Shown here: piece after piece, positions 3,702-31,441 of the stretch | Numbering within the stretch: position 1 is the stretch's first letter | Layout of the letters: every line of letters starts with the position of its first letter | Notes under the pieces: model-generated | What the model was told of the DNA's origin: nothing | The model's database searches: none | Seen by the model: the letters and a program-made list of their open reading frames with translations, nothing else | Assembly: GCA_902603625.1 (NCBI GenBank) | Contig: CACKVM010000006.1 | Coordinates: 1-37,166 of the forward strand | Source: an uncultured Pelagibacteraceae bacterium | GTDB lineage: Bacteria; Pseudomonadota; Alphaproteobacteria; Pelagibacterales; Pelagibacteraceae | Length of the DNA stretch: 37,166 nt | Reading direction: 5' to 3' | Translations under genes and position numbers: made by a program

Positions 3702-5120
3702 TTAAATTTTATGAAAGTTATCAACTCCAACAGTATAATTGGTTCCTGCTAGTGGAACTTTTGCTAAAGCTGATGCTTCAGAAGTAAGTGCTGCTAAATC
3801 CTCAGGTTCTAAAGAATGTATATTTGTTTTTCCACAAGCTCTAGCTAATAGCTGAGCTTCAAGAGTCATTGAATGTAAATAGTTATAAACTCTCAATGCT
3901 GCATCATCAGGATTTAATCTTGCTCTTAATTTTGGATCTTGTGTAGCAACTCCCACGGGACATCTTCCTGTATGACAGTGATAACATTCACCCGCTTTTA
4001 CTCCCATTTCTTTTTCAAAGTTTGCCTCTGGAATATCTTTGTTACAGTTTAGTGCAATCATAGAACCAGTACCAATAGCTATTGCATCTGCACCTAAGGC
4101 TAATGCTTTTGCCATATCAGCACCATCTCTAACCCCACCAGCATATATTAAAGTAACTTTTCCAGTTTTTCCTACATCATCCAAAGCTCTTCTTGCTTCT
4201 CTAATAGCTGCAATACCAGGAATACCAGTGTTTGCAGCAGCGATGTGTGGACCTGCTCCAGTAGATCCTTCCATTCCATCTAGATAAATAGAGTCTGGAT
4301 CACATTTTGCAGCCATACGAACATCATCATAAACTTTTGATGCACCTAATTTTAATTGAATTGGAACTTTATTTTTTGTTAGTTGTCTAAGTTCTTCTAC
4401 TTTTAATGCTAAATCGTCTGGACCTAACCAGTCAGGATGCCTTGCAGGAGATCTTTGGTCAATACCTGAAGGTAGCGATCTCATCTCAGCAACTTGGTCA
4501 GTTACTTTTTGACCCATTAAGTGACCACCCATACCAACTTTTTGTCCTTGTCCAATAAAAACTTCTATTCCGTCAGCTAATTGCGCGTGATGTGGGTTAA
4601 ATCCATATCTTGATTGAATACATTGATAAAACCATTTTTCAGAATATCTTCTTTCATCAGGTATCATTCCACCTTCACCTGAACATGTTGCGCTACCTGC
4701 CATTGTAGCTCCTCTTGCTAATGCTGTCTTTGCTTCATAAGACAAAGCACCAAAACTCATACCAGTAATATAAACTGGAATATCTAATTCAATTGGATTT
4801 TCGCATCTTGGCCCAATAACAGTTTTTGTTTCACACTTTTCCCTGTAACCTTCAATTACAAATCTTGTAAGAGTTCCTGGCAAGAAAACTAAATCATCAA
4901 ATGTTGGAATTTTTTTCATTAATGCCATTCCACGCATCCTGTATCTTCCTAACTGAGATTTTATATGAATGTCATCAATTACTTCAGGTGTAAAAATAGC
5001 ATTATGACCCAATAAACTTTTGTTTCTTCCACCATTAGAACTTATATGAACGTCAGCTTTCCCCCCTACGTTACCATTAGTTTTTAATTTACCATTTTTT
5101 TTCTTTTTTTTCTTAGCCAT
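3702..5120 (-). CDS. mgsC: N-methylglutamate synthase subunit C (glutamate-synthase FMN domain, GlxD-like)
   Basis: 472 aa. Matches the FMN/glutamate-synthase central domain (as in GltB) expressed as a separate subunit: YITGMSFGALSYEAK near 118-131, the substrate/FMN region LDGMEGSTGAGPH near 280-292, and GGVRDGADMAKALALGADA near 328-346. Cysteines 379, 382 and 387 (CYHCHTGRCPVGVATQD) resemble the iron-sulfur loop of glutamate synthases. With MgsA and MgsB it is expected to turn a gamma-glutamyl amide plus methylamine, or GMA plus 2-oxoglutarate, into N-methylglutamate. Its ATG overlaps the mgsB stop by 1 nt (TAATG), indicating coupled translation. A basic, Gly/Asn-rich tail of about 40 residues precedes the domain, which is unusual. 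Confidence 0.88.
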   Translation of the reverse strand: MAKKKKKKNGKLKTNGNVGGKADVHISSNGGRNKSLLGHNAIFTPEVIDDIHIKSQLGRYRMRGMALMKKIPTFDDLVFLPGTLTRFVIEGYREKCETKTVIGPRCENPIELDIPVYITGMSFGALSYEAKTALARGATMAGSATCSGEGGMIPDERRYSEKWFYQCIQSRYGFNPHHAQLADGIEVFIGQGQKVGMGGHLMGQKVTDQVAEMRSLPSGIDQRSPARHPDWLGPDDLALKVEELRQLTKNKVPIQLKLGASKVYDDVRMAAKCDPDSIYLDGMEGSTGAGPHIAAANTGIPGIAAIREARRALDDVGKTGKVTLIYAGGVRDGADMAKALALGADAIAIGTGSMIALNCNKDIPEANFEKEMGVKAGECYHCHTGRCPVGVATQDPKLRARLNPDDAALRVYNYLHSMTLEAQLLARACGKTNIHSLEPEDLAALTSEASALAKVPLAGTNYTVGVDNFHKI

Positions 5121-5974
5121 TAAATTGCTCCTTTTTTCTCAGTAGGTTCTAAATTATCATAATTCCAAAGTTTTTTACCCGCTACAATTTTTTTCATCTT
5201 ACTTAAATCAAAATTTTCACCAATCTCAGCTACTTTTAATTTTCTTCTTAACCAATCTTGATCATTTTTCGTGAGTTCGGCATCTACTGCATCACTACCA
5301 TAAGAACCAATTTCTCCACCTACGAAAATTGTCCCATCATACATCGAGTCGCCTAGATTTATGCCAACATCACCTAATATGATGATCCTACCTCTTTGCA
5401 TCATAAATCCAGTAAATGCACCAGCATCACCGCCAATAATTATTGTTCCACCTTTCATATCAATGCCTGTTCTTGCACCAACGCTGCCTTTACATATCAA
5501 ATCTCCGCCCCTTATAGCTGCTCCAAAACAAGATCCAGCATTTTTTTCAATTACAACCTTACCTGCCATTAAGTTTTCTGCACAAGACCATCCAACTCTT
5601 CCATTGATTCGAACTATTGGTCCATCACATGAGCCCATTCCAAAATATCCTAAACTTCCTTCAAAAATTAAATTTAATTTATTTAATATTCCAACTCCTA
5701 AACTATGTTTTCCTTGTGGATTTTTAATAACTATAGTTCCGTATCCTTGACTCATTAAATTATCAATTTCTTTATTTGCATCTGCAGCTGTCATATCTTT
5801 GACATCAAGATCTGTCCTTTTATTAAAGTCTACATCATAAGTTCCAAAGTAATAAAAGTTTTCTGCCTCATCAGGATTAAAAAACTTTTGTTGAGTACGT
5901 CCTGTTAAAACTTCACTGTGCATACCCATAGCTTGGGCTTTAGTTTTTTTAGATACATTTTTTAAATTTGCCAT
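5120..5974 (-). CDS. mgsB: N-methylglutamate synthase subunit B (GXGXG beta-helix domain, GlxC-like)
   Basis: 284 aa. From about residue 105 to 235 it has the repeated glycine pattern of the GltB C-terminal right-handed beta-helix (GSLGYFGMGSCDGPIVRING, KGSVGARTGIDMKGGTIIIG, GDAGAFTGFMMQRGRIIILG). In glutamate synthases this domain is structural and links the amidotransferase and FMN domains; here it is a free subunit, as in MgsABC/GlxBCD systems. It overlaps the end of mgsA by 13 nt and the start of mgsC by 1 nt, so the three subunits should be made together. Confidence 0.88.
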   Translation of the reverse strand: MANLKNVSKKTKAQAMGMHSEVLTGRTQQKFFNPDEAENFYYFGTYDVDFNKRTDLDVKDMTAADANKEIDNLMSQGYGTIVIKNPQGKHSLGVGILNKLNLIFEGSLGYFGMGSCDGPIVRINGRVGWSCAENLMAGKVVIEKNAGSCFGAAIRGGDLICKGSVGARTGIDMKGGTIIIGGDAGAFTGFMMQRGRIIILGDVGINLGDSMYDGTIFVGGEIGSYGSDAVDAELTKNDQDWLRRKLKVAEIGENFDLSKMKKIVAGKKLWNYDNLEPTEKKGAI

Positions 5975-18360: not shown

Positions 18361-19692
18361 TTATTTTTCTAAAAAAGTTTTTGAAGAGTCATCCATAGCG
18401 GTTGCCCATGGCGTATGATGAATAGGAGCAACGGAACCAGTTACAGGAGATGAAAAAGATTTATTTCTATATGTTAAAATATCTTCAACTTTATGGTGTT
18501 CCCACTCTTTAAAGTGTTTTCTTATTAACTCAAAATCAATCTTTGGATAATCAGACATTTCATGAAGCTCTTTTGTGTACTCAGTTTGAAAATCAATCAT
18601 TTGATCTGGGTTTTCCAGCTTTTCTTCCATCGCAATCCATTTATTAATATCTTTTTCAACCTCACCTTTGCTAGGTATTTTGATTTTATTCATAATTACA
18701 TCTCTTGCGTACCAAGCTTGGCAATCAAACATATTAAATGTATGGAATTGATCTTGCATACCAAGATATAAAAGTTTGTGATTATCTTGCCATACTACAC
18801 CTTTATATAATTTTGGTGGATATAACCTGTTTCTAGTTTTTAATTGTAAATTCTCCTCTAAAAATGGAAAATGATGAAGATAACCAGTACATAGAATTAC
18901 AACATCAGCTTCTTGTTCAGTACCATCTTTAAAGATTGCTTTTTTTCCTACCAATTTATCTAAATAATGAACTTCTTTCATTCCATCAGGCCACTTGAAT
19001 CCCATCGGATTATGTCGATAACCAATGGTAACACTTTTGGCTCCGTATTTATTACACTGAAGTGCAATGTCCTCTGCTGAATAACTGCTTCCCAGTACAA
19101 TTACATTTTTATTTCTAAACTCCTCTGCATCTCTAAAATCATGAGAATGCATTATTCTTCCTGGAAATGAGTCCATTCCTTTATATTCAGGAATAAATGG
19201 AACTGAAAAATGTCCTGTAGAAACAACAACAAAATCAAAATTATCTTTCAATACTTTATTGTTAACTTTATCTTGATAACTAAGTTCAAATTTATCATCT
19301 TTAAACACAGTATTTATAACTCTCGTATTAAATTTTATCTTTTTTTTTAAATCCCCTTTACTCACTCTTCCAATAATATAGTTAAACAAAACTTCTCTAG
19401 GTGGAAAAGATGGTATTGGCTTTCCAAAATGCTCATCAAAAGAATAATCTGCGAATTCTAAACACTCTTTCGGTCCATTTGACCAAAGGTACCTGTACAT
19501 ACTATTCGGAACAGGATCACCGTATTGATCAGAACCAGTTCGCCAACTGTAATTCCATAAACCTCCCCAGTCATTTTGTTTTTCAAAACAAACTACATCT
19601 GGGATTTTTTCACCATTTTTTTCTGCTAACTCAAAAGACCTGAGCATAGATAATCCACATGGTCCAGCACCTATAATCGCAACTTTTGTCAT
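18361..19692 (-). CDS. tmm: Trimethylamine monooxygenase (flavin-containing monooxygenase family)
   Basis: 443 aa, the normal size of bacterial Tmm. FAD site VAIIGAGPCGLS (Gly8-Gly13), FMO fingerprint FPGRIMHSHDF (Phe176-Phe186) and NADPH site VLGSSYSAED (199-208) are all present, as is the Tmm-like GGLWNYSWRTG and NSMYRYLWSNGPKE. It oxidises trimethylamine to TMAO with NADPH and O2 in the cytoplasm, and can act on related tertiary amines or dimethyl sulfide. It feeds Tdm directly. It is convergent with tmoW and divergent from glpK. Confidence 0.95.
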   Translation of the reverse strand: MTKVAIIGAGPCGLSMLRSFELAEKNGEKIPDVVCFEKQNDWGGLWNYSWRTGSDQYGDPVPNSMYRYLWSNGPKECLEFADYSFDEHFGKPIPSFPPREVLFNYIIGRVSKGDLKKKIKFNTRVINTVFKDDKFELSYQDKVNNKVLKDNFDFVVVSTGHFSVPFIPEYKGMDSFPGRIMHSHDFRDAEEFRNKNVIVLGSSYSAEDIALQCNKYGAKSVTIGYRHNPMGFKWPDGMKEVHYLDKLVGKKAIFKDGTEQEADVVILCTGYLHHFPFLEENLQLKTRNRLYPPKLYKGVVWQDNHKLLYLGMQDQFHTFNMFDCQAWYARDVIMNKIKIPSKGEVEKDINKWIAMEEKLENPDQMIDFQTEYTKELHEMSDYPKIDFELIRKHFKEWEHHKVEDILTYRNKSFSSPVTGSVAPIHHTPWATAMDDSSKTFLEK

Positions 19693-19824: not shown

Positions 19825-21306
19825 ATGAGAAAATTTATTATTTCGATTGATCAAGGAACTACATCTAGTAGAGCTATATTATTTGATTTAAGAGGAAAAC
19901 CAATATTTGTTTCACAAATGGAATTTACCCAATATTTTCCTAAAGACGGGTGGGTGGAACATGATCCAGAGGAAATATGGATCACTACAAAAAAAGTTTT
20001 AAAAAATGTTATTAGTAAAAGTAAAAAATTAAAGGGCAAAATTTTAACTATTGGAATTACCAATCAAAGAGAAACAACTATTTTATGGGACAAACATACT
20101 GGTAAACCAGTTTATAATGCTATCGTTTGGCAGGATAGAAGAGCTGTTGAATATTGTAATAAACTTATTAAACAAAAAAAAGAAACTTTAATATATAATA
20201 AGACTGGTTTATTAATTGATGCATACTTTTCAGCAACAAAAATTAAATGGATTTTAGATAATGTTTTAAAAGCAAAAAAATTACTTAAGCAGAAAAGACT
20301 TTTATTTGGAACAGTAGATAGTTTCTTATTGTGGAGGCTTACAGGAGGTACAAATCATTTTACTGATGCAACTAATGCAAGTCGAACGATGTTATATAAT
20401 ATTGTAAGCAATAAATGGGATAAACAAATTTTAGATATACTTAAAATACCTGAACATATTCTGCCAGAAGTTAAAGATTGTTCAGATGATTTTGGTCATA
20501 CAGATCCAAAAATAACAGGTGATTCTTACTCGATAACAGGAGTAGTTGGAGACCAACAATCAGCTACTATTGGACAATGTTGTTTTGAGCCTGGATCATT
20601 AAAAAGTACTTATGGTACAGGTGCTTTTGTTCTTTTAAATACTGGGAGCAAAGTTATTTACTCAAAAAATAGATTGCTAACTACTATCGGATATAGAATT
20701 GATGGAAAAACTACCTACGCTCTAGAGGGGTCAATATTCGTAGCAGGCGCAGGAGTACAGTGGTTAAGGGATAAAATTAATTTTATAAAAAAAGCATCAG
20801 ATACTGAAAAGATTATTAAGCAACTCGAAAGCAACAGAGGTATATATTTAGTACCAGCTTTTACCGGACTTGGTACTCCTTATTGGAATGTTAAATCAAG
20901 AGGAGTTTTGAGTGGATTGACTAGAGATACAGGAATAAAAGAAATTGTTAGAGCAACAGTAGAGTCTGTTGCATATCAAACGTATGACTTATTTGAGGCA
21001 ATGAAAAATGATGGATTAAGACCTAAAATTGTGAGAGTGGATGGGGGGATGGTAAAAAATAATTGGTTCTCGCAATTTTTAAGCAATATCGTAAATGTAA
21101 AAGTATTGAGACCCAAAGTTGATGAAACAACTGCACTTGGTGCTGCGTTTATGGCTGGATTAAAAATTGGAGTTTATAAATCTTTAAAAGATATTTCTAA
21201 AAATTGGTCTTTAGATCAAAAATTTTCCCCAAAATTGAAAAGTTCGAAAAGAAAATATTATATTCAAGGTTGGCAAAAAGCTATTAAACGAAGTTTAATA
21301 ACATAA
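19825..21306 (+). CDS. glpK: Glycerol kinase
   Basis: 493 aa, full length for GlpK of the FGGY family. Begins with the ATP/phosphate motif SIDQGTTSSRAILFD. Further matches are GITNQRETTILWD, NAIVWQDRR, the second-domain YGTGAFVLLNTG, and VRVDGGMVKNNWFSQFLSN near the C-terminus. It phosphorylates glycerol to sn-glycerol 3-phosphate in the cytoplasm, trapping glycerol brought in by the importer just downstream. It is divergent from tmm. A candidate promoter and a second start region follow its stop, so the transporter may also be transcribed separately. Confidence 0.95.
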   Translation: MRKFIISIDQGTTSSRAILFDLRGKPIFVSQMEFTQYFPKDGWVEHDPEEIWITTKKVLKNVISKSKKLKGKILTIGITNQRETTILWDKHTGKPVYNAIVWQDRRAVEYCNKLIKQKKETLIYNKTGLLIDAYFSATKIKWILDNVLKAKKLLKQKRLLFGTVDSFLLWRLTGGTNHFTDATNASRTMLYNIVSNKWDKQILDILKIPEHILPEVKDCSDDFGHTDPKITGDSYSITGVVGDQQSATIGQCCFEPGSLKSTYGTGAFVLLNTGSKVIYSKNRLLTTIGYRIDGKTTYALEGSIFVAGAGVQWLRDKINFIKKASDTEKIIKQLESNRGIYLVPAFTGLGTPYWNVKSRGVLSGLTRDTGIKEIVRATVESVAYQTYDLFEAMKNDGLRPKIVRVDGGMVKNNWFSQFLSNIVNVKVLRPKVDETTALGAAFMAGLKIGVYKSLKDISKNWSLDQKFSPKLKSSKRKYYIQGWQKAIKRSLIT

Positions 21307-21324
21307 TTCAACTTGAAATTGTAA

Positions 21325-21353
21325 TTGACAGATTAAACCTTTACACCAATGAT
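21325..21353 (+). promoter_or_regulatory. Candidate sigma-70 promoter for glpV
   Basis: A perfect TTGACA (21325-21330) and AATGAT (21348-21353) spaced 17 nt, 46 nt before the glpV ATG and after the glpK stop. A small AATTCT/AGAATT hairpin (21355-21370) with T-rich sequence follows it. Confidence 0.5.
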
Positions 21354-21398
21354 GAATTCTTGTTAGAATTATTTTTTAACAACTCAAAAGGGGAAATA

Positions 21399-23117
21399 AT
21401 GATTAAAAATATAAAAACTGTCCTTGCTTTTGTAGTTTCATTCTCATTACTTGTTACATCTTCTTATGCTGATGCAATTAAGAAGTATGCAACAGGTGAA
21501 TTCAGTCTTTCTACATTATCTGAGAAAGAAAGGATTAAGGAATTAAAATGGTTTCAAAAAGCAGCGAAACCATTTAAAGGAATGGAAATAAATGTTCTTT
21601 CTGAAACAATTCCAACACATGAGTATGAGTCTAAAACTTTAACAAAAGCTTTTGAAGAAATCACAGGAATTAAAGTAAATCATCAACTTCTAGGTGAGGG
21701 TGAGGTTGTGCAAGCTGTACAAACTCAAATGCAAACTGGAAGAAACTTATATGATGCTTACATTAATGACTCAGATTTAATTGGTACTCACTCAAGACTT
21801 CAACTTGCAGTCAATTTAACAGATTGGATGGCAGGTGAAGGTAAAAAAGTTACTTTGCCAACACTAGATATAGATGATTTCATTGGTAAATCATTTACTA
21901 CTGGACCTGATGGAAAACTTTATCAGTTACCTGATCAACAATTTGCTAATCTTTACTGGTTTAGAAAAGATTGGTTTGATAGGCCAGAAATTAAAAAAGG
22001 GTTCAAAGCTAAGTATGGTTATGACCTAGGTGTTCCGGTAAACTGGTCAGCGTATGAAGACATTGCTGAATACTTTACAAATGACGTCAAAAATATTGAT
22101 GGAGTTAGAGTCTACGGTCATATGGATTATGGTAAAAGAGCTCCAGATTTAGGTTGGAGAATGACCGATGCATGGTTGTCAATGGCTGGCGCAGGTTCTG
22201 TCGGTAAACCAAATGGTGTTCCAGTAGATGAATGGGGTATCAGAATGGAAAAAGGTACATGTAATCCAGTTGGAGCTGATGTAGCTAGAGGTGGAGCTGC
22301 GAATGGTCCTGCTGCGGTATACGCTATAAGAAAATGGGATGAATGGTTAAGAGCTTATGCTCCTCCAGGTGCTGCAAGTATGGACTTCTATCAGTCTTTA
22401 CCAGCATTATCATCTGGTAACGTTGCGCAACAAATTTTCTGGTACACAGCTTTTACAGCATCAATGGTTGCACCAAAAAGCTCAGGAAATAAAACTGTTG
22501 ACGATAATGGAACTCCTTTGTGGAGAATGGGTCCATCACCAAAAGGACCTTATTGGGATGAAGGAATGAAGCTTGGATATCAGGATGCTGGTTCATGGAC
22601 TTTATTTAAGTCTACTCCAGTAGATAGAAGAAAAGCTGCATGGTTATATGCTCAGTTTGTAGTATCAAAAACTGTTTCTTTAAAGAAAAGCCACGTTGGT
22701 TTAACTATAATAAGAGACAGTGATATCAATCACAAGTCTTTCACTGAAAGAGCTCCAAAGTTAGGTGGATTAGTAGAATTCTACAGATCTCCTAATAGAG
22801 TTTTGTGGTCACCTACAGGCATTAATGTTCCGGATTATCCGAAACTTGCTCAAATATGGTGGCAACAAATTGGAGATGTAAACTCAGGCGCTTTTAGTCC
22901 ACAAGAAGCTATGAATCGTCTTGCTGAGGAGATGAACTTAGTAATGTCACGTATGGAAGCTGCTGATAAAGCTAATAATACGTATGGTGGATGTGGTCCA
23001 AGATTATCTAAACCAAAAGGTGAAGAATATTGGTTAGGACAAGCAGGATCGCCAAAAGCTAAGCGTGATGAAAAACCACAAGGTAAAACAGTTCCGTACG
23101 AAAAGGCTTGGAATTAA
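21399..23117 (+). CDS. glpV: ABC transporter substrate-binding protein, glycerol type (GlpV-like)
   Basis: 572 aa from the ATG at 21399, chosen for the AAAGGGGAAATA ribosome site and the signal peptide MIKNIKTVLAFVVSFSLLVT (cleavage near SYA-DA). It is a large extracellular solute-binding protein of the sugar/glycerol class with conserved patches IPTHEYESKTLTKAFEE, DQQFANLYWFRKDWFD and YQDAGSWTLFKSTPVDRRKAAW. In Rhizobium-type glp loci the equivalent protein binds glycerol. Glycerol as ligand is supported by glpK before it and glpSTPQU after it; a polyol is the alternative. A strong terminator directly follows, so this gene should be expressed above the rest of the operon. Confidence 0.85.
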   Translation: MIKNIKTVLAFVVSFSLLVTSSYADAIKKYATGEFSLSTLSEKERIKELKWFQKAAKPFKGMEINVLSETIPTHEYESKTLTKAFEEITGIKVNHQLLGEGEVVQAVQTQMQTGRNLYDAYINDSDLIGTHSRLQLAVNLTDWMAGEGKKVTLPTLDIDDFIGKSFTTGPDGKLYQLPDQQFANLYWFRKDWFDRPEIKKGFKAKYGYDLGVPVNWSAYEDIAEYFTNDVKNIDGVRVYGHMDYGKRAPDLGWRMTDAWLSMAGAGSVGKPNGVPVDEWGIRMEKGTCNPVGADVARGGAANGPAAVYAIRKWDEWLRAYAPPGAASMDFYQSLPALSSGNVAQQIFWYTAFTASMVAPKSSGNKTVDDNGTPLWRMGPSPKGPYWDEGMKLGYQDAGSWTLFKSTPVDRRKAAWLYAQFVVSKTVSLKKSHVGLTIIRDSDINHKSFTERAPKLGGLVEFYRSPNRVLWSPTGINVPDYPKLAQIWWQQIGDVNSGAFSPQEAMNRLAEEMNLVMSRMEAADKANNTYGGCGPRLSKPKGEEYWLGQAGSPKAKRDEKPQGKTVPYEKAWN

Positions 23118-23139
23118 TTTTATTTTGTAAAATCTTTAA

Positions 23140-23177
23140 ACAAAGAGGGGCATGTAAAACCCCTCTTTGTTTTTTTT
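23140..23177 (+). terminator. Rho-independent terminator between glpV and glpS
   Basis: ACAAAGAGGGG pairs perfectly with CCCCTCTTTGT over a 9-nt loop, followed by a run of T. It is 22 nt after the glpV stop and 19 nt before the next gene. Partial read-through would set a high ratio of binding protein to membrane components. Confidence 0.94.
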
Positions 23178-23195
23178 AATCATTAAAATTTTTTT

Positions 23196-24260
23196 ATGAG
23201 TTTAGAACTTAAAGGAGTAGATAAAAAGGTTGGCGATGAGACTCATATCTATACTACAGATTTAAAATTTGAAAAAAATACTATAAATGTTTTGCTAGGT
23301 TCTACTTTAGCTGGAAAAACAACATTGATGCAATTAATGGCAGGTTTAGATAAACCTACAACAGGAGAAATTTGGTTTAATCAAAAAAATGTAACTGGTG
23401 TAAAAGTCCAAAAAAGAAATGTATCGATGGTTTATCAACAATTTATAAATTATCCAAATTTCACAGTTTATGAAAATATTGCATCACCTCTAAGAATAAC
23501 TCAAATAGATAAAATGGAAATTGATAAAAGGGTAAACAAAGTTGCTGAATTATTAAAATTGACAAACATGTTAAATAAAAAACCAAATGAATTATCAGGA
23601 GGCCAACAACAAAGAACAGCTCTAGCAAGAGCTTTGGTAAAAGACTCTGATCTTATTTTATTGGATGAACCTTTAGCTAATTTAGATTTTAAATTAAGAG
23701 AGGAACTTAGAGAGGAACTACCTAAATTGTTTAGAGACAGAGACTGTATAGTTGTTTATGCAACAACAGAACCATCTGACGCATTATTAATTGGAGGTTA
23801 TACAGCAACTCTTTTAGAGGGAAAAGTAATACAACATGGAAAAACTTTAGATGTATACAATAAACCAAACAACTTAGACTCAGCAAAAGTTTTTAGTGAT
23901 CCACCAATGAATATTGCTGAAATAAATAAAAAAGGAGAACTTTGTTCTTTGGCAACTGATAATGTAAGTTGGAAACCGAATTTAACATTAAAAGATGGAT
24001 CTTACAAAGTAGGAATTAGACCTCATAACATAACAACATATAGAGAAGGTAAAAATTCTGTTGAGATTAATGGTAAAGTATTAATATCTGAACTTAGCGG
24101 CTCAGAAAGTATGATTCATTTTACTAATGGTGATCTAAATTGGGTTTCATTGTCAGAAGGAATTCATCAGAAAGCCGTTGGTGAAAAAACTAAATTATTT
24201 ATGAATTCAGATGAGTTTTTGTATTTTGATAGTGAAAACAGATTGGTAGGAAATGTCTAA
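23196..24260 (+). CDS. glpS: ABC transporter ATP-binding protein, glycerol type (GlpS-like)
   Basis: 354 aa, MalK/UgpC-like length with a C-terminal TOBE-type domain (VGIRPHNITTYREG). Walker A GSTLAGKT (35-42), signature LSGGQ (133-137) and Walker B LILLDEP (153-159) are intact. The switch-loop histidine is missing: where relatives read THD, this has YATTEPSDA with Thr191 in the His place. It likely pairs with the next ATPase as a heterodimer, with one weakened ATP site. It overlaps glpT by 8 nt. Which of the two genes is formally glpS or glpT is assigned by order only. Confidence 0.85.
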   Translation: MSLELKGVDKKVGDETHIYTTDLKFEKNTINVLLGSTLAGKTTLMQLMAGLDKPTTGEIWFNQKNVTGVKVQKRNVSMVYQQFINYPNFTVYENIASPLRITQIDKMEIDKRVNKVAELLKLTNMLNKKPNELSGGQQQRTALARALVKDSDLILLDEPLANLDFKLREELREELPKLFRDRDCIVVYATTEPSDALLIGGYTATLLEGKVIQHGKTLDVYNKPNNLDSAKVFSDPPMNIAEINKKGELCSLATDNVSWKPNLTLKDGSYKVGIRPHNITTYREGKNSVEINGKVLISELSGSESMIHFTNGDLNWVSLSEGIHQKAVGEKTKLFMNSDEFLYFDSENRLVGNV

Positions 24261-25320
24261 GATTACATTAAAAGATTTAAGTCATAGTTATTTACAATTT
24301 CCAACTAAAAATGAAGATTGGGCAATTAAGAATGTAAATATTGATTGGCATGATGGTGGAGCTTATGCATTGTTAGGTCCTTCTGGTTGTGGAAAAACAA
24401 CGCTACTCAATATCATTTCTGGCCTTATAAATCCAACTAAGGGACAAATTTTATTTGATAATGAGAATATTACTCAAAAAAATCCTGTTGAGAGAAATAT
24501 TGCTCAAATTTTTCAATTTCCAGTTATTTACGACACTATGACAGTGTTTGATAATCTAGCTTTTCCACTTCGAAACAGAAAAATACCAGAAGAAGAAATT
24601 GAAAATAAAGTTAAAGAAATATCTAATATGTTAGAGCTAACACCAACTTTATATAATAGAGCATCAGGTTTAACCGCAGATGGAAAACAAAAAATTTCTT
24701 TGGGAAGGGGGCTAGCAAGATCTGACGTAAATGTAATTATGTTTGATGAACCACTTACAGTGATTGACCCTCATCTTAAATGGGTCTTAAGATCAAAATT
24801 AAAAGAACTTCATCAAAAAATAAAAAGAACGATGATTTACGTCACACATGATCAAACAGAGGCACTTACTTTTGCTGATCAGGTTGTTGTAATGCATGAG
24901 GGTCAGATAGTACAAACTGGAACTCCAGTAGAATTATTTGAAAAACCTAAACATACATTTGTTGGACACTTTATTGGTTCTCCGGGTATGAATATATTAC
25001 CTTGCAAAATCGATAATGGTTTAATTTTTATTAACAGCACAAATATTGAAATTTCAAATTCCAAATTAAATAACACCAGTTATTCAAAAGTAGAGCTAGG
25101 TATAAGACCTGAGTTTATATCTTTTGATAAAAAAGGTTTACCTGTGAAAGTTACAAATGTTAGTCATACTGGAAAGAATAACATTATTGAAACCGAAAGC
25201 GATGGTGGAAAAATTAAGTTGATTACTAAAGCTTCAGTAAAAATACCTGAGGGATCAGCTTTCTTAAATTTTAAAAAAGATCGCACCTATGTTTATAAAG
25301 ATGATTGGATTGTAGAATAA
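24253..25320 (+). CDS. glpT: ABC transporter ATP-binding protein, glycerol type (GlpT-like)
   Basis: 355 aa. Walker A GPSGCGKT (42-49), Walker B VIMFDEP (161-167) and switch VTHDQTEA with His199 are intact. The ABC signature is decayed: at the LSGGQ place it reads LTADGKQ (140-146). This complements the partner ATPase, which has a good signature but no switch His. A TOBE-type C-terminal domain (VELGIRPEFISFD) is present. It overlaps the partner by 8 nt at the start, and its stop shares one base with the next ATG (TAATG). It is an ATPase, unrelated to the E. coli glycerol-3-phosphate antiporter also called GlpT. Confidence 0.85.
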   Translation: MSKITLKDLSHSYLQFPTKNEDWAIKNVNIDWHDGGAYALLGPSGCGKTTLLNIISGLINPTKGQILFDNENITQKNPVERNIAQIFQFPVIYDTMTVFDNLAFPLRNRKIPEEEIENKVKEISNMLELTPTLYNRASGLTADGKQKISLGRGLARSDVNVIMFDEPLTVIDPHLKWVLRSKLKELHQKIKRTMIYVTHDQTEALTFADQVVVMHEGQIVQTGTPVELFEKPKHTFVGHFIGSPGMNILPCKIDNGLIFINSTNIEISNSKLNNTSYSKVELGIRPEFISFDKKGLPVKVTNVSHTGKNNIIETESDGGKIKLITKASVKIPEGSAFLNFKKDRTYVYKDDWIVE

Positions 25321-26186
25321 TGAATAAAACTGTTAATCAAAAAGCTTGGTTTTTTGTTATACCTGTTTTTGTATTAGTTGCGTTTAATGCAATCATTCCA
25401 CTTATGACGGTTGTAAATTATGCTTTTCAAGAAACTTTTGGAAACAATCAATTTATGTGGGAAGGGACTAGGTGGTTTAAACAAATTTTAATCTCTGAGA
25501 GATTTCATGCTGCATTGGGTAGACAAGTTTTATTTACTTTAATAATTTTAGCGATTCAGATCCCACTTGGTATTTTCATAGCTCTTAATATGCCGAAAGA
25601 GGGACTAGGAGTTCCAATATGTTTAGTATTAATGTCTATGCCACTTTTAATTCCTTGGAATGTAGTAGGAGCGATGTGGAACATATTTGCTCTCCCAGAC
25701 ATTGGTTTTCTTGGACACTCATTGAATGCATTAGGGTTTGATTATAATTTTACTCAACAAAGTGGAGATGCTTGGTTTACCACTATATTAATGGATGTTT
25801 GGCATTGGACATCATTAGTAGTTTTACTTTCATATGCAGGATTAAGATCTATTCAACCAGCTTATTATCAAGCTGCAGAAATTGATGGAGCAACAAGATG
25901 GGCTGTATTTAGACATATAGAATTACCTAAAATGAAAAAAGTTTTAACCATAGCTATATTATTGAGATTTATGGATAGTTTTATGATTTATACAGAACCT
26001 TTCGTTCTAACAGGGGGAGGGCCGGGAAATGCCACAGCTTTTCTATCCATTGATTTAGTAAAAATGGCATTAGGACAATTTGATTTAGGACCTGCTGCAG
26101 CGATGTCTTTGATCTATTTTTTCATAGTACTAACTGTTTGTTGGGTCTTTTACAATTTGATGATGAGAAACGAGAGTAATTCATGA
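25320..26186 (+). CDS. glpP: ABC transporter permease, glycerol type (GlpP-like)
   Basis: 288 aa from the ATG at 25320, which overlaps the previous stop. A reading from 25305 adds five residues inside the previous gene. It is a MalF/UgpA-type inner-membrane permease with six or so hydrophobic segments and the coupling loop YYQAAEIDGATRWAVFRHIELPKMK. It overlaps the next permease by 4 nt (ATGA). It forms the channel together with GlpQ. Confidence 0.88.
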   Translation: MNKTVNQKAWFFVIPVFVLVAFNAIIPLMTVVNYAFQETFGNNQFMWEGTRWFKQILISERFHAALGRQVLFTLIILAIQIPLGIFIALNMPKEGLGVPICLVLMSMPLLIPWNVVGAMWNIFALPDIGFLGHSLNALGFDYNFTQQSGDAWFTTILMDVWHWTSLVVLLSYAGLRSIQPAYYQAAEIDGATRWAVFRHIELPKMKKVLTIAILLRFMDSFMIYTEPFVLTGGGPGNATAFLSIDLVKMALGQFDLGPAAAMSLIYFFIVLTVCWVFYNLMMRNESNS

Positions 26187-26983
26187 AAAAATTTAAATGG
26201 TTAGTACCAACAATTTACATAATTTTTTTAATGTTACCAATTTATTGGTTATTGAATATGTCTTTTAAAACCACAACTGAAATTATTAATACTTATACAT
26301 TATGGCCACAAGAATTTACTTTAGATAATTATAAAAAAATTTTTACCGACAGTACTTGGTATACTGGATATTTAAATTCAATCTATTATGTCGTTCTAAA
26401 TACAATTATATCAGTAGCAGCTGCGCTTCCTGCAGCTTATGCTTTCTCTAGGTATAAATTTTTAGGAGATAAACATTTATTTTTCTGGCTTTTAACTAAC
26501 AGAATGGCTCCACCAGCAGTTTTTGCATTACCTTTTTTTCAATTTTATTCTTCAGTAAATCTTTTTGACACACATGTAGCAGTAGCCTTATCTCATTGTT
26601 TATTTAATATTCCTTTAGCAGTCTGGATTTTAGAGGGATTTATGTCATCTGTGCCAAAAGAATTAGATGAGACTGCTTACGTGGATGGTTATTCATTTTG
26701 GAAATTTTTCTTTAAAATTTTTATTCCAACAATCACGGCAGGGATTGGAATCACAATGTTTTTCTGTTTTATGTTTTCTTGGGTAGAATTATTATTAGCA
26801 AAAACGTTAACAGCTGTGGCTGCAAAACCGATTGCAGCTACAATGACAAGAACAGCCAGTACATCAGGTTATGAACTAGGATTATTAGCGGCCGCGGGTA
26901 GTTTAACTATTATTCCAGGTGCAATAGTTATCTATTTTGTCAGAAACTATATTGCGAAAGGATTTGCTTTGGGTAGAGTATGA
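26183..26983 (+). CDS. glpQ: ABC transporter permease, glycerol type (GlpQ-like)
   Basis: 266 aa, MalG/UgpE-type permease. Hydrophobic N-terminus (LVPTIYIIFLMLPIYWLLNMSF), conserved NTIISVAAALPAAYAFSRYKF and the coupling loop PKELDETAYVDGYSFWKFFFKIFIP. It is the second channel half with GlpP. It overlaps both neighbours by 4 nt (ATGA), so the whole set is translated in a chain. It is not the glycerophosphodiesterase that carries the same symbol in E. coli. Confidence 0.88.
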   Translation: MKKFKWLVPTIYIIFLMLPIYWLLNMSFKTTTEIINTYTLWPQEFTLDNYKKIFTDSTWYTGYLNSIYYVVLNTIISVAAALPAAYAFSRYKFLGDKHLFFWLLTNRMAPPAVFALPFFQFYSSVNLFDTHVAVALSHCLFNIPLAVWILEGFMSSVPKELDETAYVDGYSFWKFFFKIFIPTITAGIGITMFFCFMFSWVELLLAKTLTAVAAKPIAATMTRTASTSGYELGLLAAAGSLTIIPGAIVIYFVRNYIAKGFALGRV

Positions 26984-27339
26984 TATTTACAAATTCATTT
27001 GCTGCAAACTCTTGGGACTCAGTAGCAAAATCCCAAGAAAAAGGTTTTTTTGATTTTGAGTTTATTACTTGGATGGCATGGACTTGGCAGACAGCTACAT
27101 TCTTTTTATTTATTGTTTTATGTTTTGTTATAATGGTTTTATGGGAAAAAAAAAAACCAGGTGGGAGCCCAAGAAAAGGTATCTTAGGATTAGATACAAC
27201 AAGGGGGGATAGATTGTTTATTTCGCTACTAAGCTCAGCCTATATTCATTTAGGTTGGTTAGGTTTGATTGGACCAATGTTGTGGATTGCAACTATTATT
27301 TCATTTATCTTTGCAATATTTGTTTTTAGGTACGTTTAA
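26980..27339 (+). CDS. glpU: Small integral membrane protein of glycerol ABC loci (GlpU-like, DUF2160)
   Basis: 119 aa with an N-terminal hydrophilic stretch, a first transmembrane segment (QTATFFLFIVLCFVIMVLW), a cytoplasmic loop (EKKKPGGSPRKGILGLDTTRGDRLFISLL) and two further hydrophobic stretches to the C-terminus. Shape and position after glpQ match the small DUF2160 protein usually found in glycerol ABC transporter operons; its role there is not known to me. It overlaps glpQ by 4 nt. An A11 run at 27146-27156 inside the gene is a spot for replication slippage or sequencing error. Confidence 0.8.
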   Translation: MIFTNSFAANSWDSVAKSQEKGFFDFEFITWMAWTWQTATFFLFIVLCFVIMVLWEKKKPGGSPRKGILGLDTTRGDRLFISLLSSAYIHLGWLGLIGPMLWIATIISFIFAIFVFRYV

Positions 27340-27344
27340 ATATT

Positions 27345-28373
27345 ATGAAAAAAATAGTAATTATAGGAGCTGGAGCAATGGGCTCAGCTTTTTCTGTGCC
27401 TTGCGCAGATAATAAACATGATGTTTACCTAGTTGGGTCATTTTTAGAAGATGATTTAGTTGATGAAATTAATAAATTAGATAATTTTCATCCTGTTTTA
27501 AAATGTCAACTTCCAAAAAAATTAAATGTAATAAGGTTTTCTGAATTTAATGATCAAATTTATAAAGATATAGATTTATTAGTTGTTGGAGTAAGCTCTA
27601 AAGGAATAGATTGGATTGGAGATGAAATATCCAAAATTTATAGTGAAAAAACTGATATACTTTTACTTACAAAAGGTCTCACTATAATTAATAATCAATT
27701 TCAAACCTTAGCAGAAAAATTAAAACAAAGTTTAAATAAACACAAAATTAATAATCCTAAAATATCAGCAGTTGGAGGACCATGTTTAGCCAATGGTTTA
27801 GCTAACAGAATAAATAGTAGTGTAATACTTGCTAATGAAAATTTAGATATTGTTAAAAATATTGGAAAAATGATTTCCACAGAATATTACTCTACTGAAT
27901 ATTCGGATGATCTAATAGGGGTCGAGGTTTGTGCTGCTACAAAAAATATTTATTCTATGTTGATTGGAGCTTCAGAGGGATTAAGTAGCAAATCTCAAAG
28001 TTCAGAAATCAAAAAAAAATATTATTTAAATACTGCTGCATCTTTAGCTTATAAAGCAGTATCAGAAATGGAAAAATTAGTGAAAAAATTAAATGGAAAA
28101 TCACAAACAGCTTACGGATTAGCTGGATTGGGTGATTTATATGTAAGTTCAGCTGGAGGCAGAAATAGTAAAATGGGATTTCACCTTGGTCAAGGTCTTC
28201 TTTTTAAAGATGCGAAACAAAAATATATGAAAGAGGTAACAATTGAAGGTGCTGATTTAGCTTTTGCTATTGGTTCAAAAATTTTAAAAGAATTTGATTT
28301 AAATGAATTTCCTTTGTTATTCAGTGTAGTAGAATCTATTTGTAGGAATAAAAAGTTAGAAATAAATTGGTAA
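27345..28373 (+). CDS. gpsA: NAD(P)-dependent glycerol-3-phosphate dehydrogenase, GpsA type
   Basis: 342 aa. Rossmann motif IVIIGAGAMGSAF (about 4-16), LLTKGL with Lys110, GPCLANGLA (145-153), the catalytic-lysine region VEVCAATKNIYSM with Lys200, and YGLAGLGDLYVSSAGGRNSKMG all match GpsA. It interconverts sn-glycerol 3-phosphate and dihydroxyacetone phosphate with NAD(P). Being last in the glycerol operon (5 nt after glpU), it may run in the oxidative direction in place of the flavin enzyme GlpD, or serve phospholipid synthesis. It is somewhat divergent (GPCLANGLA versus the usual GPSFAKEVA). Its stop abuts the stop of convergent fhs with no gap. Confidence 0.88.
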   Translation: MKKIVIIGAGAMGSAFSVPCADNKHDVYLVGSFLEDDLVDEINKLDNFHPVLKCQLPKKLNVIRFSEFNDQIYKDIDLLVVGVSSKGIDWIGDEISKIYSEKTDILLLTKGLTIINNQFQTLAEKLKQSLNKHKINNPKISAVGGPCLANGLANRINSSVILANENLDIVKNIGKMISTEYYSTEYSDDLIGVEVCAATKNIYSMLIGASEGLSSKSQSSEIKKKYYLNTAASLAYKAVSEMEKLVKKLNGKSQTAYGLAGLGDLYVSSAGGRNSKMGFHLGQGLLFKDAKQKYMKEVTIEGADLAFAIGSKILKEFDLNEFPLLFSVVESICRNKKLEINW

Positions 28374-30138: not shown

Positions 30139-30184
30139 TAAAAAAAATATGAACTATTTATACTCATTATTATAAAATTTGATT

Positions 30185-31441
30185 ATGCAAAAATATTCAG
30201 TTTTCAATCTTGTTAAAAATGCCCTTTCAAATCATGAAAATTGGGACTTGGCTTGGAAAGACCCAACTCCAAAGGAAGAGTATGATGTTGTTATTATTGG
30301 CGGCGGCGGACATGGTTTAGCAACAGCATACTATTTAGCAAAAGAACATAATATCACTAATGTTGCTATTATCGAAAAAGGTTGGATTGGTGGAGGTAAT
30401 GTTGGTCGAAATACTACAATAATCAGATCAAATTATATGCATGATGACAATGCATTATTTAGTGAATTTGGAATGGATCTTTGGAGAAGAATGAGTCAAG
30501 ACTTAAATTACAATGTGATGTTTTCTCCAAGAGGAATTATTAATCTTGCTCACTCAGATGCACAAATGAATACTTACGCTCGAAGAGGAAATTCGATGAG
30601 ATTGAATGGTATCGATGCGGTACTTTTAAATAGGGAGGAGGTGAAAGAAATTATTCCTATGGCTGACTTTTCTGAGAATGTTAGATTTCCAATTTTTGGA
30701 GGACTAATGCAGCCAAGTGCAGGCACCGCTAGACACGATGCTGTTGCTTGGGGTTATGCACGTCAAGCAGACGATATGGGTGTAGATATAATTCAAAATT
30801 GTGAGGTTATTGGATTTGATGTGTCTGCAGGAAAAATTAATGGAGTGAGAACTTCTCGTGGAGATATCAAGGCAAAAAAAATTGGATTATGTGTTGCAGG
30901 TAGCACAAATATTTTAGCAGAAAAATTAAATATGACATTACCAATTGAGACTCATTTACTACAAGCATGTGTATCTGAACCGGTAAAACCAGTTTTAGAT
31001 AAAGTAGTTACTTTTGGTGCTGGACATTTTTATATAAGCCAGTCTGACAAAGGTGAAATGGTTATGGGTGGTGACCTTGATGGCTACAATAGTTATGCAC
31101 AAAGAGGTAATCTTCCAACTCTTCAACATGTTCTAACTGAAGGAATTGCAATGATGCCTTTCTTAAGTAAATTGAAAATGCTTAGAACTTGGGGTGGAAT
31201 AATGGATATGTCCATGGACGGCTCACCAATAATAGACAAAACTCATATTGAAGGTTTGTATTTAAATTGTGGTTGGTGTTATGGTGGATTTAAAGCTACA
31301 CCGGCATCTGGTTGGACATTTGCACACACGATTGCACAGGATAGAGTTCATCAATTAAATGCAGGCTATAGTTTGAATAGATTTAATACTGGTCACTTAC
31401 TTGACGAAAAGGGACTTGGTACCAAAACCTGGATTTCGTAA
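30185..31441 (+). CDS. soxB: Heterotetrameric sarcosine oxidase-type beta subunit (SoxB)
   Basis: 418 aa from the ATG at 30185. A TTG two codons earlier is also in frame but less likely. FAD site YDVVIIGGGGHGLATAYYLA (33-52), then WIGGGNVGRNTTIIRSNY, and TARHDAVAWGYAR where His184 matches the covalent flavin histidine of SoxB proteins. It catalyses oxidative N-demethylation together with SoxD, SoxA and SoxG. The same architecture is used by N-methylglutamate dehydrogenase (MgdA), and with mgsABC/gmaS in this window that is a real alternative. No Shine-Dalgarno is seen. Confidence 0.9.
   Translation: MQKYSVFNLVKNALSNHENWDLAWKDPTPKEEYDVVIIGGGGHGLATAYYLAKEHNITNVAIIEKGWIGGGNVGRNTTIIRSNYMHDDNALFSEFGMDLWRRMSQDLNYNVMFSPRGIINLAHSDAQMNTYARRGNSMRLNGIDAVLLNREEVKEIIPMADFSENVRFPIFGGLMQPSAGTARHDAVAWGYARQADDMGVDIIQNCEVIGFDVSAGKINGVRTSRGDIKAKKIGLCVAGSTNILAEKLNMTLPIETHLLQACVSEPVKPVLDKVVTFGAGHFYISQSDKGEMVMGGDLDGYNSYAQRGNLPTLQHVLTEGIAMMPFLSKLKMLRTWGGIMDMSMDGSPIIDKTHIEGLYLNCGWCYGGFKATPASGWTFAHTIAQDRVHQLNAGYSLNRFNTGHLLDEKGLGTKTWIS

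Follow-up and report, generated by a model that had tools for sequence, protein, structure and literature searches.

MalFGK2, the maltose transporter, is the model ATP-binding cassette (ABC) importer and is thought to need both of its ATP sites. The subject here is a relative in the same ATPase group in which one site has been stripped, a change kept across several phyla: the paired ATPases GlpS and GlpT of a putative glycerol importer. They are encoded in a stretch of 37,166 nts (the window) from an uncultured Pelagibacteraceae bacterium (assembly GCA_902603625.1, contig CACKVM010000006.1), which is contig C6 of a draft genome of 788,680 bases. The closest described system is the glycerol importer GlpSTPQUV of Rhizobium leguminosarum VF39, for which the original paper is Ding 2012. 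Its gene set is that of the window, where genes for two ATPases, two permeases, a DUF2160 protein and a binding protein are clustered beside glycerol genes. In the VF39 operon (PMC7912956) the binding-protein gene is last, whereas in the window it is first. The passages of that account that were consulted make no mention of degenerate sites, and no description of such sites in GlpS or GlpT was found in the open-access literature, a search outside which most subscription papers lie.

Transporters with one degenerate ATP site are established among exporters, and each composite site is formed by Walker A and B and the A-, Q- and H-loops of one domain together with the signature of the other (PMC7756269). 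Exporters such as MRP1, TAP and Pdr5 carry an altered signature on one subunit or half and often an altered catalytic core on the other, and the Walker B Glu is often changed too (PMC7756269). Unlike in many such exporters, that Glu is kept in all 189 distinct GlpS sequences compared below.

Motifs of the two ATPases

The features of the pair, all on the + strand, are as follows.

23196-24260, +: glpS, first MalK-type ABC ATPase, 354 aa; full-length MalK fold in the predicted model
23229-23231, +: GlpS A-loop position, Val12, no aromatic; degenerate site
23298-23324, +: GlpS Walker A, GSTLAGKTT, with Leu for the fourth Gly and Lys41 kept; degenerate site
23592-23606, +: GlpS signature LSGGQ, intact, residues 133-137; would serve the competent site of GlpT
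23664-23669, +: GlpS Walker B Asp157-Glu158, kept
23766-23768, +: GlpS switch position, Thr191 for His (YATTEP); degenerate site
24253-25320, +: glpT, second MalK-type ABC ATPase, 355 aa, overlapping glpS by 8 bp; full-length MalK fold in the predicted model
24289-24291, +: GlpT A-loop Tyr13; competent site
24376-24402, +: GlpT Walker A, GPSGCGKTT, canonical; competent site
24670-24690, +: GlpT LTADGKQ in place of the signature, residues 140-146; would face the degenerate site
24745-24750, +: GlpT Walker B Asp165-Glu166; competent site
24754-24771, +: GlpT D-loop LTVIDP, where 35 of 45 control rows have LSNLDAK
24847-24849, +: GlpT switch His199 (VTHDQ); competent site

An earlier note on this DNA had reported that GlpS lacks the switch His while keeping LSGGQ, and that GlpT keeps His199 but has LTADGKQ instead of a signature. 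Both observations hold in the two open reading frames (ORFs), and LTADGKQ aligns over LSGGQQQ without an insertion. Three changes go beyond that note: Val12 at the GlpS A-loop position, the loss of the fourth Gly from GlpS Walker A, and VID rather than NLD in the GlpT D-loop. Given the make-up of a composite site set out in PMC7756269, the losses of A-loop aromatic, Walker A Gly, His and signature all fall in the site built on GlpS Walker A, and the other site is canonical. The D-loop change is assigned to neither, since D-loops sit in the middle of the interface. A head-to-tail dimer would thus have one complete composite site and one without His and signature, just as the note had proposed, and 189 distinct GlpS and 189 distinct GlpT sequences agree with this.

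Conservation of the asymmetry

DUF2160 served as the marker of the operon and is present in 85 of 398 genomes of the window's phylum, that of the window included. The first survey comprised 87 pairs: those of 84 loci drawn by DUF2160, that of the window, one on an R. leguminosarum plasmid (locus L129) and one from a Nonomuraea record. Species genomes were also scanned with a GlpT alignment, and the best 80 of at least 592 loci were taken. This pattern scan relied on two peptide patterns, one of which holds the GlpT switch His, so the presence of that residue in the 78 GlpT it yielded is in part a product of the selection. Of 99 genomes searched by profile in the window's family, 29 have GlpT. 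ORFs scoring 140 or less (first survey) or 200 or less (wider survey), and repeats of the window locus (L262, L266, L271), were dropped before counting. Merging of identical motif-bearing rows took 193 GlpS to 189, 194 GlpT to 189 and 45 controls to 44. The controls, obtained through the same searches, are ATPases of UgpC-like or other MalK-like kind (30 rows from UgpC loci, 6 from beside short DUF2160 matches, 3 from the pattern scan and 6 from viral contigs). Classes were assigned by profile or sequence score without use of the motifs. The gap between them is wide in one set of loci that includes those of the pattern scan (GlpS at least 366, GlpT at least 412 and controls at most 315 bits) and narrower in another (lowest GlpS 241, highest control 226, these being single-sequence scores). 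At L123-L128 a second, short kind of DUF2160 match stands beside a UgpC-like ATPase with intact motifs.

The switch His is present in none of the 189 GlpS, all 189 GlpT and all 44 controls; in its place GlpS has Thr (173), Ser (12), Ala (3) or Pro (1). For the SGG core of the signature the two ATPases are reversed (GlpS 189/189, GlpT 0/189, controls 44/44). An A-loop aromatic is found in just 2 of 189 GlpS, and in every GlpT (as Tyr or Phe) and control; the fourth Walker A Gly is in 11 of 189 GlpS and again in every GlpT and control. The D-loop Asn is kept in GlpS (189/189) and 41 of 44 controls and is absent from GlpT (0/189), where Val replaces it in all but one. Every row of all three classes has the Walker A Lys, the Q-loop Gln and the Walker B Asp and Glu, and replacement of that Glu in the degenerate site, frequent elsewhere though not defining, is accordingly not seen in any of the 189 GlpS. 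As all 44 controls keep both His and SGG, the losses exceed chance.

Sampling does not account for the result. All 87 GlpS of the first survey lack His and have SGG, all 87 GlpT have His and lack SGG, and the sets free of pattern bias concur (84/84 drawn by DUF2160 and 29/29 drawn by profile in the window's family). Both genes are present, adjacent and on the same strand, at 193 of 194 loci. The exception, L233, has GlpT with no GlpS of the class, and tblastn found only a C-terminal GlpS-like stretch upstream, so by its sequence GlpS there is apparently broken or lost in the draft. No pair with both sites intact was found among the 193 two-gene loci, 77 of which come from the pattern scan, where His alone is no independent test. 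The earlier note had pointed to Rhizobium and other pairs as the place to look: GlpS and GlpT of the R. leguminosarum plasmid, where two ATPases, two permeases, DUF2160, binding protein, glpK and glpD lie together, carry the losses of the window pair, and so do all sampled relatives, among them members of Pseudomonadota, Actinomycetota and Bipolaricaulota and a metagenome-assembled genome titled Desulfuromusa. Among the best 80 of at least 592 loci, the closest GlpT relatives whose organism is named belong to Pelagibacteraceae (73% identity).

Conservation extends to the residues that stand in for the lost ones. In GlpT, Leu140, Lys145 and Gln146 do not vary over 28 rows; in 39 rows of GlpS Thr190 is invariant and Thr191 is kept in at least 90%. 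YATT is present in 27 of 30 GlpS rows of the window's family, and its Thr codon varies synonymously (ACA 22, ACT 4, ACC 1). The median ratio of non-synonymous to synonymous substitution (dN/dS) in the family is about 0.07 for GlpS (50 comparisons) and about 0.14 for GlpT (104 comparisons), only pairs with dS between 0.05 and 1.2 being used. From the low ratios and the synonymous variation, the substitution pattern indicates that the asymmetry is maintained by purifying selection throughout the family. Values as high as 0.62 occur in comparisons with a second kind of pair (L297, L299), which fits divergence of paralogues.

The deepest GlpT branch sampled is that of a Bipolaricaulota contig (L237:353-2578). 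His and signature are lost in its pair (ATPAPE; FGPEWSQ), while GlpS retains the A-loop Tyr and the fourth Walker A Gly. This retention, in one sequence, hints that His and signature went first and that L237 may represent an early stage.

Fold, family and origin

The predicted models have a mean predicted local distance difference test score of 95.1 for GlpS and 88.4 for GlpT. That of GlpS matches MalK (4khz_B) with Z 39.7 and a root mean square deviation (rmsd) of 2.7 over 352 aligned residues; that of GlpT matches 2it1_B (Z 39.2, rmsd 2.2, 347 aligned) and MalK 2awn_B (Z 36.5, rmsd 2.8, 346 aligned). The OB_MalK C-terminal domain has a Pfam match only in GlpT; the GlpS model aligns over the same region. 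As modeled, each chain would have an ABC domain and a MalK-type C-terminal domain over its full length, which is the architecture of the MalK (CUT1) type. Both score well below the UgpC cut-off (NF008653, 432 bits), at 234 bits for GlpS and 286 for GlpT. They thus share the full-length fold and tree group of the ATPases of maltose and glycerol-3-phosphate importers (MalK and UgpC types) and, unlike the MalK/UgpC-like controls, which are canonical at His, SGG, A-loop and Walker A in 44 of 44, form a specialized pair.

A quick tree of 112 ABC domains, built from a sample of each class (GlpS of L237 was dropped by the Walker A pattern), gave GlpS as one clade and GlpT as another, each with support 100. 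The two group with UgpC-like rows and one ATPase of this genome (Shimodaira-Hasegawa-like approximate likelihood ratio test, 97), apart from LivG, LivF and the halves of RbsA. With motif columns removed, approximately unbiased (AU) tests rejected a grouping of GlpT with LivG and RbsA N halves (p 0.029) and one of GlpS with LivF and RbsA C halves (p 0.030), modest values from a quick tree; the motif-stripped tree left out LivG_own, LivF_own and RbsC_L339. On the tree grouping and the AU rejections, the GlpST pattern probably arose within MalK/UgpC-type ATPases, separately from that of LivGF and RbsA. LivG groups with the RbsA N half (support 87, motif columns dropped), and the asymmetry of LivGF and RbsA may possibly have a single origin; two origins are therefore claimed rather than three. 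The sister of GlpT may be either GlpS or UgpC, the support being 9 (motif columns dropped) and 51 (other tree).

Other importers with one altered site

The earlier note called such asymmetry common in exporters but unusual among importers, and the latter statement does not stand. LivG and LivF, of branched-chain amino acid importers, have the same complementary losses: SGG is absent from 31 of 31 LivG, all of which have His, and present in 31 of 31 LivF, all of which have Gln for His (30 surveyed LivF loci, with a single LivG neighbor in each, and one pair in this genome). They differ from GlpST in belonging to another branch of ABC ATPases and in their substitutions, mostly LPYG or LAYG, and VEQN. 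RbsA-type ATPases also share the complementary losses, but there the halves are fused: all 30 N halves have His and no SGG, and all 30 C halves have SGG and no His. The RbsA C half has lost the Walker A Lys in 26 of 30, whereas GlpS retains it. A 2024 paper describes RbsA and NupO of B. subtilis as having one degenerate site (PMC11466899). The LivF, RbsA and Opp surveys each took 30 loci rather than all matches, and RbsA ORFs were picked by a script counting RbsA motifs.

Fourteen other full ABC ATPases are encoded in the window's genome, 12 with SGG and 13 with His (partly read by eye). A LivG/LivF-like pair of that genome (L263/L264, G000:C22, about 3811-5300) has LSFGQ with EHN and LSGGE with EQN, and a further ATPase (L260) has LSSGQ with His retained.

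A universal rule for two-gene importers was considered and rejected: Opp/Dpp-type ORFs have His in 27 of 27 and SGG in 26 of 27, the ORFs counted being those, in 19 of 30 loci, with a match to the Walker A and B patterns used. One Opp-type ATPase (L379:781-1779), which resembles SapD, has LTEALCQ for the signature with His retained, and its sequence marks it as perhaps one more asymmetric importer. The pattern is, then, known in kind; as far as the open-access literature was searched, it is new for MalK-type sugar or polyol importers.

Mechanism and alternatives

The residues, their conservation, the confinement of losses to one composite site and the predicted MalK fold of each chain are the basis for a mechanism that is well supported on sequence grounds. 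Very probably, GlpS and GlpT form a heterodimer in which one site is hydrolytic and the other, degenerate one possibly still holds ATP. They would be the two motor subunits of one glycerol importer, functional only together. Site I would consist of the A-loop, Walker A, Q-loop, Walker B and His199 of GlpT with the LSGGQ of GlpS; having all the canonical parts, it would hydrolyze ATP. Site II would consist of Walker A and B and Thr191 of GlpS with the LTADGKQ of GlpT. It keeps Lys and Asp-Glu and is without His, aromatic and opposing signature; most likely it would hold ATP loosely or over several cycles with little or no hydrolysis. ATP-driven closure of the dimer and hydrolysis at site I would then drive transport at about one ATP per glycerol. 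Glycerol is the presumed substrate because GlpK and a glycerol-3-phosphate dehydrogenase-like gene are at the locus. Two points weigh against this mechanism. In one MalK-type importer, that for maltose, a single mutated MalK reportedly (Davidson and Sharma 1997) causes severe impairment, so a one-site importer of the MalK type would need a mechanism other than that of MalFGK2. Furthermore, all 189 GlpS have the catalytic Glu and Walker A Lys of site II intact, and some slow hydrolysis there is possible.

That intactness, together with the Q-loop Gln and Walker B Asp of every GlpS, is also what speaks for hydrolysis at both sites, with the GlpS Walker B Glu acting without His, LTADGKQ being a working non-canonical signature and the asymmetry merely setting rates; conservation of the replacement residues (Leu140, Lys145 and Gln146 in GlpT, Thr190 and Thr191 in GlpS) would fit as well. 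It is nevertheless quite unlikely: four motifs are changed in one site and none in the other, and substitutions of the switch His in MalK and HisP leave less than 2% of ATPase activity (PMC6222333). Far less probable still is that GlpS and GlpT act as homodimers in different transporters, for though each chain has a full predicted MalK fold with C-terminal domain, a GlpS homodimer would be without switch His and a GlpT homodimer without signature, and the genes overlap and occur together at 193 of 194 loci. It is hardly credible that a redundant site is decaying neutrally, or that these codons hold an assembly or sequencing error (the earlier note had itself raised sequencing error). The same losses are in all distinct relatives across several phyla, with 84 of the 87 pairs of the first survey drawn by a neighboring gene and not by motif, and conservation, the low median dN/dS and the synonymous variation at the Thr codon lead both decay and error to be rejected.

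Insulation from other transporters concerns the reason for the pattern and is compatible with a heterodimer having one hydrolytic site. GlpS or GlpT as a homodimer, or with a UgpC/MalK-like partner, would build at least one crippled site; only their pairing with each other would give a fully canonical site and leave no second broken partner elsewhere, which would discourage mixed complexes. Some MalK-type ATPases of sugar importers are common to several transporters (PMC7658222), several pair-bearing genomes are rich in UgpC-like ATPases (18 listed in each of G043, G055 and G071), and both genes are kept at 193 of 194 loci. Yet GlpS or GlpT with a canonical ATPase still has one complete site on paper, a change of interface alone would suffice with no need of catalytic losses, the halves of RbsA are fused and cannot mix and show the same pattern even so, and one genome with the operon (G070) has no UgpC-like match at E 1e-90. 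As the explanation insulation is unlikely, and it may be a second gain.

Returning to the heterodimer with one hydrolytic site, a bolder form of it is put forward tentatively: a strictly one-site importer in the maltose-importer family, using one ATP per glycerol, in which site II would clamp ATP for long periods and keep the motors engaged from one cycle to the next. Such a division of labor would have arisen two or more times among GlpST, LivGF and RbsA, each of which has its two losses on opposite subunits or halves; if true, it would be a repeated solution in bacterial importers. GlpST would offer a naturally occurring one-site system to set beside the two-site maltose importer. Comparison of the two bears on the role of the second site, on the ATP cost per substrate and on the reason for the recurrence in importers of degenerate sites, a feature discussed mainly for exporters.

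Pairs away from DUF2160

A DUF2160 gene is near 71 of the 77 pairs from the pattern scan (among the best 80 of at least 592 loci). The six pairs without one nearby are L167, L173 and L220 on short contigs, L213 and L238 with full flanks, and L234, cut on the left by the contig start. In L234, a Pelagibacteraceae contig, the pair (L234:2094-4239) follows two permease genes and precedes genes that read as TRAP-type. In the window's genus, GlpT is matched twice in each of two genomes (G413, G474); one match of each scores close to L297-L299, and L297-L299 cluster with L234 in the tree, where sampled. There is, then, a second GlpST-like pair in the window's family (L234, also L297-L299), and its sequence context suggests that the role of such a pair may extend beyond glycerol. 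LivGF and RbsA lead to rejection of the idea that only the glycerol importer has the pattern, and the pairs L213, L238 and L234, near which no DUF2160 was found, weaken it also.

The gene cluster and its surroundings

The cluster at 19825-28373 comprises, besides glpS and glpT, the following genes.

19825-21306, +: glycerol kinase GlpK (NF000756 and TIGR01311 above cut-off), upstream of the importer genes
21402-23117, +: glpV-like substrate-binding protein (SBP_bac_1); the start is an inner ATG, the listed ORF running from TTG 21360
25320-26186, +: glpP-like permease (BPD_transp_1); the start is ATG 25320, the listed ORF running from TTG 25305
26183-26983, +: glpQ-like permease (BPD_transp_1)
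26980-27339, +: glpU-like small membrane protein, DUF2160 (PF09928, E 1.1e-33)
27345-28373, +: glycerol-3-phosphate dehydrogenase-like gene (NAD_Gly3P_dh domains above cut-off), downstream

Overlaps of 1 to 4 bp join glpT to glpP (with glpP starting from ATG 25320), glpP to glpQ and glpQ to glpU; overlapping genes from glpS to glpU fit one complex.

Between the binding-protein gene and glpS there is a strong hairpin (23138-23172) of 13 pairs with a 9-base loop (-19.1 kcal/mol, z -5.9). Eight consecutive U stand at its end, five of which lie past the stem. (A pattern scan with a loop limit of 8 did not list it.) From its form it is likely a partial terminator, which would allow an excess of binding protein.

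The glycerol cluster is flanked by trimethylamine monooxygenase and sarcosine oxidase beta-family genes, at 18361-19692 (-) and 30179-31441 (+), so that its surroundings are a methylated-amine and polyol neighborhood.

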